Assembly (NCBI RefSeq): GCF_011440375.1
Contig: NZ_JAAOIR010000005.1
Span: 186,001 to 250,000, forward strand
Direction: 5' to 3'
DNA from: Halorubellus sp. JP-L1
Lineage (GTDB): Archaea; Halobacteriota; Halobacteria; Halobacteriales; Natrialbaceae
Length of the DNA stretch: 64,000 bases
Shown here: in pieces, positions 60,846 to 64,000 of the stretch
How positions within the stretch are numbered: position 1 is the first letter of the stretch
Layout of the letters: the number at the start of each line of letters is the position of its first letter
Program-made: the position numbers and the translations under genes
The notes under the pieces: generated by a model
Database searches by the model: none
The model's input: only the letters and a program-made list of their open reading frames with translations
Told to the model about the DNA's origin: nothing

Positions 60846-62129
60846 ATGACAGCTTATCCGTCGATCACCGCGCAACTCGACGACCCGGACGCCGCTCGCG
60901 AGGAGGGCCGTCGGAAGATGGAGTGGGCGCGCCAGCACATGCCCATCCTCGAGGCGCTCCGCGAGGAGTTCGAGGCCAACCAGCCCTTCGCCGGGCAGCG
61001 CATCGCGATGGCGATGCACGTCGAGGCGAAGACCGCGAACCTCGTCGAGCTGCTCGCCGACGGCGGCGCCGAGGTCGCGATCACGGGCTGCAACCCGCTG
61101 TCGACGCACGACGACGTGTCCGCGGCGCTCGACGCGCACGACTCGATCGCGAGCTACGCCGTCCGCGGCGTCGACGACGACGAGTACTACGAGGCCATTG
61201 AGGCCGTCATCGACGTCGACCCGACGGTCACCGTCGACGACGGCATGGACCTCGTCGCCGCCGTCCACGAGGACTACCCGGAACTCATCGACACCATCCT
61301 CGGCGGCGCGGAGGAGACGACGACGGGCGTCCACCGCCTGCGCGCGATGGACGCCGACGGCGCCCTCGAGTACCCCGTGTTCGCGGTGAACGACACCCCC
61401 ATGAAGCGGTTGTTCGACAACGTCCACGGCACGGGCGAGTCCTCGCTCGCCTCCATCGCGATGACGACGAACCTCTCCTGGGCGGGGAAGAACGTCGTCG
61501 TCGCTGGCTACGGTTACTGCGGGAAGGGTGTCGCCAAGAAGGCCAGCGGACAGAACGCGAACGTCGTCGTGACCGAAGTCGAGCCCCGTCGCGCGCTCGA
61601 AGCGCACATGGAGGGCTACGACGTCATGCCAATGGGCGACGCCGCCGAGATCGGTGACGTGTTCGTCACGACCACCGGGAACCGCGACGTCGTCGTCGAC
61701 GAGCACTTCGAGCGGATGAAGGACGGCGTGCTCCTCGCGAACGCCGGCCACTTCGACATCGAGATCGACCTCGACGCGCTCGACGACAAGGCCGTCGACC
61801 GCTACGAAGCACGGGACGGCGTCGAAGCGTACGAGATGGCAGACGGCCGCCGCCTGAACGTCCTCGCCGAGGGTCGCCTCGTGAACCTCGCCGCCCCCAT
61901 CGCGCTCGGGCACCCCGTCGAGGTCATGGACCAGTCCTTCGGCATCCAGGCCGTCGTCGTCCGGGAACTCGTCGAGAACGCCGACGACTACGGCCCCGGC
62001 GTCCACGACGTCCCCGACGAACTCGACAAGGAAGTCGCCGAGATCAAGCTGGCGGCGGAGGGCGTCGACTTCGACTCGCTGACCGACACGCAGGAAGAGT
62101 ACATGGGGTCCTGGCAGCACGGGACCTAG
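60846..62129 (+). CDS. ahcY: Adenosylhomocysteinase
   Basis: NAD-dependent hydrolase splitting S-adenosylhomocysteine to adenosine and homocysteine, so it relieves product inhibition of methyltransferases; 427 residues. [20 protein letters not shown] begins it; [20 protein letters not shown] and [15 protein letters not shown] are substrate-domain motifs, and [17 protein letters not shown] is the NAD loop. [20 protein letters not shown] and [11 protein letters not shown] are also conserved. The very C-terminal lysine-tyrosine pair of the bacterial/eukaryotic enzymes is not present, as usual for archaeal forms. Its stop codon is followed within 2 bases by a five-unit repeat. Confidence 0.96.
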
Positions 62130-62130
62130 C

Positions 62131-62381
62131 GACTCCGGTAGCATACGGCGTCCGCCAGGACGCCGTTTCTGGTGGTGAACTGACTCCGGTAGCATACGGC
62201 GTCCGCCAGGACGCCGTTTCTGGTGGTGAAGCGACTCTCCGAGCATACGGCGACCGCGAGGTCGCCGTTTCTTGTGGTGAACTGACTCCGGTAGCATACG
62301 GCGACCGCGAGGACGCCGTTTCTTGTGGTGAACTGACTCCGGTAGCATACGGCGTCCGCCAGGATGCCGTTTCTGGTGGTG
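62131..62381. repeat. 51-bp tandem repeat x5 with covarying hairpins
   Basis: Units start at 62131, 62182, 62233, 62284 and 62335, exactly 51 bases apart. Each has a hairpin with nine-base arms and a four-base loop (62145-62166, then every 51 bases to 62349-62370). Copies 1 and 2 are ACGGCGTCC/GGACGCCGT; copy 3 is ACGGCGACC/GGTCGCCGT with both sides changed; copy 4 has one mismatch; copy 5 a G-T pair. TTTCT follows each hairpin on the plus strand. It starts 2 bases after the ahcY stop. Confidence 0.95.
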
Positions 62382-62488: not shown

Positions 62489-62917
62489 ATGAGCGCGAGT
62501 CGGAAGGGGAATCGTCGGGAGCGCGAGCTCGTGAACGCCCTCGACGAGGCGGGGTTCGCGGTGATGCGGGCGCCGGCGTCGGGGGCGGCGACGGACCGCG
62601 AGCTGCCGGACGTGCTGGCGGGAAATGGCGACGACTTCTACGCGATCGAGGCGAAGTCGTCGTCGGGGCGCCCGATCTACCTCGAGGGCGAGGAGGTGGA
62701 GGCCCTGGTGTACTTCGCGCGGAACTTCGGCGCGAAGCCCCGGATCGCGGTGCGGTTCGACCGCGAGGACTGGTTCTTCTTCCATCCGGGCGACCTCTAC
62801 ACGACGGACAAGGGGAGTTATCGCGTGAAGAAGGAGACCGCGCTCGCGGACGGCGTCGACTTCGCGGAACTCGTCGGTGACACGGAGCGGACGAGCATCG
62901 GCGACTTCGACGACTGA
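62489..62917 (+). CDS. hjc: Holliday junction resolvase Hjc
   Basis: Archaeal nuclease that cuts four-way DNA junctions during recombination; 142 residues, dimeric. [20 protein letters not shown] starts it. The nuclease core has E13, D41 ([11 protein letters not shown]) and the E54-A-K56 pair ([11 protein letters not shown]), with [15 protein letters not shown] and [17 protein letters not shown] conserved in the family. The ATG at 62489 is chosen from the TATA box; the frame extends upstream into the repeat region. C-terminal tail acidic. Preceded by the 51-bp repeats, followed by the thiamine-binding protein. Confidence 0.93.
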
Positions 62918-63328: not shown

Positions 63329-63368
63329 CGACCTGACAGCGTGGCGAGCGACCGCGACCGATCACTCG

Positions 63369-63512
63369 CTCGCGACGGCCCTTGTGCTCGCGACGGCCCT
63401 TGTGCTCGCGACCGACTACTCGCCCGCGATCGCCTTGTTGCTCGCGACCGACTACTCGCCCGCGACCGCCTTGTTGCTCGCGACCGACTACTCGCCCGCG
63501 ACCGCCTTGTTG
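63369..63512. repeat. 18-bp x2 and 36-bp x3 tandem repeats over the end of the thiamine-binding protein gene
   Basis: Two copies of CTCGCGACGGCCCTTGTG (63369-63386, 63387-63404) are followed by three 36-bp copies at 63405-63440, 63441-63476 and 63477-63512, the first with one base change. The stop codon of the minus-strand gene (63488-63490) lies in the third 36-bp copy, so the others repeat its last 12 codons, stop included, in its 3' flank. Confidence 0.92.
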
Positions 63513-64000
63513 CTCGCGACCGTGCGCGCCCACTCCTCGCGCCACTCGCCGACGCGCCCGACGAGGTCGTCGTAGCTGTACAGGAGCGGTTCCGGCGGTT
63601 CCTTCGCGTACTCCTCGAACACGTCCGGGACCGCGCCGTGGTCGGTGACGGGGAACGAGACGTTCAACTCGGCGAGTTTCCCCTGCGCGTCGGGACCGAG
63701 CATGAAGTCGACGAACGCCTCCACGAGCCGATCCCGGTCGCTGTCCGCGAACTTCCCGATGCCGCTGAGGTTCGTGTACCCGTTATCGCCCGGGAACGCG
63801 ACCTGGTGCTTCTTCAGATCCGCGTCGCTCCGGTTCGCGTACACCTGGTCGGTCGAGAACGACGTGACGACGTTCGTCTCGCCGGACGTGAACGCGCCGT
63901 AGGACGCGCCCCACGAGTCGAGGACTGTCACGTCGTTGTCGAGCAAGCGCTCCCAGTAGTCGAGGTAGCCGTCTTCGCCGTACTCCTTGACCGTCCACAG
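63488..64000 (-). CDS. Thiamine ABC transporter substrate-binding protein (5' end outside window)
   Basis: C-terminal 170 residues of a periplasmic-type binding lipoprotein, continuing beyond the window: LWTVKEYGEDGYLDYWERLL, then TVLDSWGASYGAFTSGETNV, STDQVYANRSDADLKKHQVA and GIGKFADSDRDRLVEAFVDF. The regular ThiB/TbpA pattern LVEAFVDFMLGPDAQGKLAE and the sequence EEYAKEPPEPLLYSYDD support the thiamine-type iron/thiamine family. The ATPase and permease would lie further out, if present. The stop codon is inside a 36-bp tandem repeat, giving an end VASNKAVAGE. Assignment to thiamine rests on family resemblance and the MTH1187 neighbour. Confidence 0.8.
   Translation of the reverse strand: MWTVKEYGEDGYLDYWERLLDNDVTVLDSWGASYGAFTSGETNVVTSFSTDQVYANRSDADLKKHQVAFPGDNGYTNLSGIGKFADSDRDRLVEAFVDFMLGPDAQGKLAELNVSFPVTDHGAVPDVFEEYAKEPPEPLLYSYDDLVGRVGEWREEWARTVASNKAVAGE

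Follow-up and report, generated by a model that had tools for sequence, protein, structure and literature searches.

A tandem hairpin array behind ahcY is one site of a dispersed, REP-like hairpin family at gene borders in Halorubellus

Introduction

At the ends of archaeal transcripts the role of hairpins is still debated, with most credit going to the nuclease aCPSF1 and to U tracts. Transcription stops efficiently (95%) at T5C in Haloferax volcanii, where one hairpin motif reached 59% termination, while a T stretch followed by C is a known intergenic motif of haloarchaea (PMC7237163). A hairpin is thus able to work in that organism. In bacteria, hairpins near gene ends include the REP elements (GTAG and CGTC superfamilies), which are high-copy extragenic palindromes of 20-40 bp that carry an unpaired tag, GTAG or CGTC, and a short conserved tail, are partly clustered, mostly as pairs in opposite orientation, and adjoin stop codons, which they may supply (PMC3733652, PMC12306157).

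Here we describe an element of the haloarchaeal genus Halorubellus that joins these two known kinds, REP-like repeats and gene-end hairpins, as a new variation, and of which no earlier description in haloarchaea was found in the open-access literature searched. With the Haloferax volcanii signals (PMC7237163) it has in common the gene-end position, the hairpin and a T run ending in C; unlike them, its U run is only 2-3 long and not conserved, it forms a repeated family, and it also occurs upstream of divergent genes. With REPs it shares a short extragenic palindrome in high copy number (~91 copies with a 9-bp stem and a 4-nt loop), an unpaired tag, a short conserved tail, proximity to stop codons and partial clustering. 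Its tag, however, is AGCRT, its arrays are head-to-tail tandems in an archaeon, and, unlike REPs, it is also anchored at divergent genes, ~60 nt upstream of their start codons. The Y1 transposase (RAYT) that serves as a further REP criterion is described for the GTAG class only. In a composite gene-end element of other haloarchaeal genera, the flanks and outer stem of hairpin 1 (GCATACGGCG...CGCCGTTTC) match those of the Halorubellus element; Halorubellus differs in having this first hairpin alone and in tandem, and neither hairpin 2 nor T5-N9-T5 comes immediately after the arrays read.

Results

The window is the whole stretch of 64,000 nucleotides of Halorubellus sp. JP-L1 that was analysed, and the array lies in it between ahcY and hjc (Table 1). 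The original prediction of five units with a 51-bp period, each with a nine-base-pair hairpin and then TTTCT, was confirmed by TRF (62131-62381, period 51, 4.9 copies, score 409) and by reading out the units, with the 9-bp stem, 4-nt loop and following TTTCT found in 5/5. It had also correctly described the change of GTCC/GGAC to GACC/GGTC in copy 3, the one mismatch in copy 4 (A-A) and the G-T pair in copy 5, and had named the left-hand gene as ahcY, with which both Pfam domains agree and for which orthologues were present in 61/61 genomes searched. The distance of two bases that it gave between gene and array needs correcting, as the stop codon occupies 62127-62129 and the gap is the single base 62130. 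The RNA fold of the array region was more stable than its own shuffles (z = -3.0), there was no Rfam match to the window, and the stem and loop type of unit 3 is also present at other family loci. Separately, a minus-strand gene at the edge of the window has 18/36-bp tandem repeats around its 3' end (63368-63522).

Table 1. The ahcY array and its neighbouring genes, in window coordinates.
Feature	Coordinates	Strand	Details
ahcY (adenosylhomocysteinase)	60846..62129	+	Pfam AdoHcyase 4.6e-51, AdoHcyase_NAD 7.2e-48; array adjoins its 3' end
Unit 1	62131..62181	+	hairpin 62145-62166, stem ACGGCGTCC, loop GCCA; covariance-model match G000:C5:248127-248170
Unit 2	62182..62232	+	hairpin 62196-62217, stem ACGGCGTCC, loop GCCA; covariance-model match
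Unit 3	62233..62283	+	hairpin 62247-62268, arms ACGGCGACC/GGTCGCCGT both altered, loop GCGA; covariance-model match
Unit 4	62284..62334	+	hairpin 62298-62319, single A-A mismatch; apparent mosaic of units 1/2 and 3; covariance-model match
Unit 5, truncated	62335..62381	+	hairpin 62349-62370, one G-T pair; covariance-model match
hjc (Holliday junction resolvase)	62489..62917	+	Pfam Hjc 1.1e-33; right-hand neighbour of array

The array had been treated as a local feature of ahcY, but a search of related genomes (61 in all) showed that it is one site of a dispersed hairpin family that is genus-wide in Halorubellus, with a core formed of AGCRT, a 9-bp stem, a 4-nt loop and TTC. A two-unit query found 30 places in the window genome, and the pattern GCATACGGCGNCCNNNNGGNCGCCGTTTC with <=3 mismatches gave 81 matches there compared with 0 for the reversed control. 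A covariance model built on 93 distinct units returned 94 matches in the window genome at E<=0.01 and, at E<=0.001, at least 91 units in this genome, spread over ~45-50 sites, and at least 90 in the congener Halorubellus salinus; the 59 other genomes searched with the model gave 0-4 weak matches each among the matches listed. When the exact core pattern was searched in the GTDB collection, which may omit the window's own genome, only Halorubellus salinus GX3 matched. No array was seen in the region downstream of ahcY in other genera, a weak negative with the ORF misassigned at several loci. Genome-wide statistics were computed on extracted loci.

Compensation within the five ahcY copies alone is weak evidence of pairing, since copy 4 resembles a mosaic of copies 1/2 and 3. 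Gene conversion, allowed for from the start as a possibility, is adequate for these five, and it is the rest of the family that supplies the evidence. In the alignment, 98% of cells pair, and 84 changes involve both sides, where shuffles gave 17.1 and slid controls 2-15, with compensated changes seen at five of the nine stem pairs. Uncompensated copies, which would have spoken against the reading of a maintained structure, are present elsewhere but rare, as ~5% of cells are non-Watson-Crick and about half of those are G.T. Because the aligned sequences had partly been chosen for pairing, the count was repeated on pattern matches picked without regard to it, and at the fixed pairs of these both sides had changed in 24 cases, 23 of which were Watson-Crick, and one side in 22, in a search that penalises double changes. 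Pair 7, which is free in the pattern, uses GC, AT, TA and CG. Furthermore, the outer pair alternates between A-T and C-G and the C-G version shortens the U run downstream, which means that pairing is kept at the expense of the U run. Together with the wobble bias described below, these counts strongly support the original prediction that the paired structure is maintained. Compensated changes can also stem from template switching within a palindrome, without selection on an RNA.

The main argument against template switching alone is a bias in the wobble pairs. Using a pairing-blind scan of the extracted loci (<=4 mismatches, 179 units) we counted 33 locus events with G.T wobbles and 10 with A.C mismatches (p = 0.0003), events that are not fully independent because orthologous loci of the two species were counted separately. 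As an A.C mismatch here reads as G.T on the opposite strand, the excess points to the TTTC strand as the RNA. The ratio of G.T to A.C was 23:7 behind stop codons and 8:2 upstream of divergent genes, the latter not significant alone, and no C-to-T excess was detected at unpaired flank positions. Selection therefore probably acts on the hairpin as RNA with the sequence of the TTTC strand, which at ahcY is the mRNA strand.

We also mapped the units relative to genes, using gene ends from a simple in-house coding-score caller, and found 0/179 units inside genes. Of the arrays whose left neighbour shares their strand (51/82), 46/51 begin 6-21 nt past the stop codon of that gene, compared with a uniform expectation of 9.2 and a maximum of 20 in 5000 simulations, while with a divergent left neighbour (31/82, about a third) 18/31 begin 48-64 nt upstream of its start codon (expectation 3.4, maximum 11). 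Identical windows applied to the right side of the arrays captured 2 and 1. These windows were set after viewing the distribution, but the anchor effect is big enough to withstand both this and the simple gene caller, and the positional rule is visible in each of the two Halorubellus genomes separately. In the divergent class AT content peaks between -35 and -27 relative to the hairpin, which fits a TATA box, with the hairpin lying beyond this box at ~60 nt from the start codon.

Comparison of the two species showed that the arrays expand locally, homogenise and differ between them. At about half of the window-genome loci, the orthologous locus of the congener also bears the element. Three units lie directly behind ahcY in the congener, two of them with the stem ACGGCCGCC/GGCGGCCGT, at near-equal distance from the stop codon, such that the stems of the two ahcY arrays differ and each is compensated. 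Eleven further sites were checked in the congener, most without the element and three with diverged elements, and as several arrays are missing at the orthologous site, no such copy is indispensable there. Presence and absence were clear, but no clean empty insertion site was readable in the congener because the flanks are too diverged for exact borders. One locus (L164, G001:C5:290450-292500) has its second unit duplicated along with ~20 nt of the upstream coding-sequence end, and since the coding-sequence end was carried with it this is a local tandem duplication, a snapshot of array growth. Unit identity was 0.86 within arrays, 0.73 between orthologous arrays and 0.66 between unrelated loci. 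A further locus (L052, ~985-1249) contains one full element and then five ~49-bp units that retain GGCCGCCGTTTC and are without AGCAT.

Discussion

The pairing claim is upheld. We give an even chance to the reading that the ahcY array arose by tandem expansion of a structured, REP-like element specific to Halorubellus, which would work as an outward-facing RNA hairpin at gene ends, in forming or protecting 3' ends and assisting termination. The element would be transcribed as an RNA hairpin that points away from the left-hand gene. The ahcY mRNA would then end in up to five stable hairpins, which may help to form or protect its 3' end, and the same hairpins may slow or terminate the outgoing polymerase. 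With a divergent neighbour, the hairpin would instead act on upstream antisense transcripts of that promoter; divergent transcription is known from archaea. With ~90 copies per genome, stems that change in a compensated way, two classes of position and gains and losses that differ between species, the family offers a natural series in which the role of hairpins at archaeal gene borders is directly testable.

The main rival is that the copies are selfish or passively spreading palindromes of REP type without any host function, which spread by transposition or recombination, expand by slippage, keep their palindrome through template switching, and survive where they harm neither gene nor promoter. 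We regard this as a serious contender, though on balance doubtful. It accounts for a family of many extragenic copies that is restricted to one genus, for the presence and absence of arrays between species, for the coding-sequence end dragged along in the L164 expansion and for the higher identity within arrays than between orthologues, and bacterial REPs likewise lie near stop codons (PMC3733652, PMC12306157). Less easily reconciled with it are the precision with which arrays are anchored on their left side at both types of boundary, which is far from uniform, the excess of G.T over A.C, which implies a constraint specific to one strand, or transcription at the least, and the many sites retained between species despite an altered stem. 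Nor was a mobilising enzyme found in the window genome: PF01797 (Y1 transposase/RAYT) had 0 matches there and one in the congener, in a search whose control was positive in 5/14 control genomes, and we reject a RAYT-mobilised REP on this basis. The element would also be an archaeal family of REP type whose tag is new and for which the window genome shows no transposase, and as such bears on how such palindromes spread.

The original prediction also proposed a tandem terminator or a small RNA. For intrinsic U-tract terminators in tandem there is the GC-rich hairpin, after which the mRNA strand reads TTTCT, shortly behind stop codons, the T5 tracts that related hairpins elsewhere precede, and the T stretch plus C known as an intergenic motif of haloarchaea (PMC7237163). 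The run after the hairpin is, however, just 2-3 U, with GTTC (a run of 2) in 42/179 units, a hairpin-plus-T scan of the region found one site compared with 0.4 in shuffles, and 51/82 arrays lie behind a same-strand gene but 31/82 upstream of a divergent one. T4+ tracts lie downstream of 15/50 elements and 24/123 controls and so are not depleted, which points to an element without visible replacement of the normal terminators; a substitute for T tracts is unsupported by these counts, and a terminator of the plain U-tract type is improbable. More improbable again is an element acting at the DNA level, as a protein-binding palindrome or a cruciform that marks transcription-unit borders, for instance for supercoiling or chromatin. 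The position at unit borders in both orientations and the palindrome with its fixed flanks AGCRT and TTC would suit it, but stems that vary while pairing is kept argue against recognition of a fixed double-stranded sequence, and the wobble bias is strand-specific. Regular repeats bearing hairpins could also suggest that the site encodes a small RNA or is a CRISPR-like array of an unusual type, a reading to which we attach hardly any weight. CRISPR repeats are separated by different spacers, whereas here the spacer recurs as part of the 51-bp unit, which led us to reject such an array; for a small RNA there is neither promoter evidence nor an Rfam match, and nothing favours a separate one at the ahcY site.

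Relatives of the hairpin in other haloarchaea place the preferred reading, a gene-end RNA hairpin, in a wider setting. Where other haloarchaeal families gave weak matches, the hairpins have the same flanks (AGCATAC...GTTTCAC), and in other genera (L170-L183 and L184-L210, locus midpoints) hairpin 1 begins a composite gene-end element that continues with hairpin 2, T5-N9-T5 (two T5 tracts, 9 nt apart), hairpin 3 and AAAAAGGT. Most composites adjoin a convergent gene or tRNA at its stop codon or 3' end, and hairpin 1 sometimes follows immediately after the stop codon, as at L184 (TAACTGACCGAGCATACGG). The pattern GCATACGGCGN{4,16}CGCCGTTTC was found in 37/293 genomes and 14/87 genera of the order, with 0 control matches, and the T5-N9-T5 core in 31/51 genera; Rfam matched only tRNAs at the loci of other genera and did not match the composite, which is widespread in the order. 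In the window genome a single exact copy of the T5-N9-T5 composite core was found (L225, G000:C2:870130), and it lacks hairpin 1. That the Halorubellus hairpin and hairpin 1 of the composite share descent is likely but not proven, and the Halorubellus module is probably an amplified form of this first hairpin of a gene-end element, which elsewhere in haloarchaea usually precedes a second hairpin and T5 tracts. More speculatively, and as a possibility that we hold only tentatively, a sequence-tagged RNA hairpin (AGCAU - stem-loop - UUUC) read by a putative factor could be a haloarchaeal signal for outward transcription-unit borders, on mRNA 3' ends and divergent promoter transcripts alike, which one genus would have multiplied into tandem arrays that replace the usual hairpin and T5. 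Hairpin 1 also showed a strand skew in some genomes, lying mostly or wholly on one contig strand in G042 and G227 (9 to 0 and 8 to 2), compared with 15 to 13 in Halorubellus.
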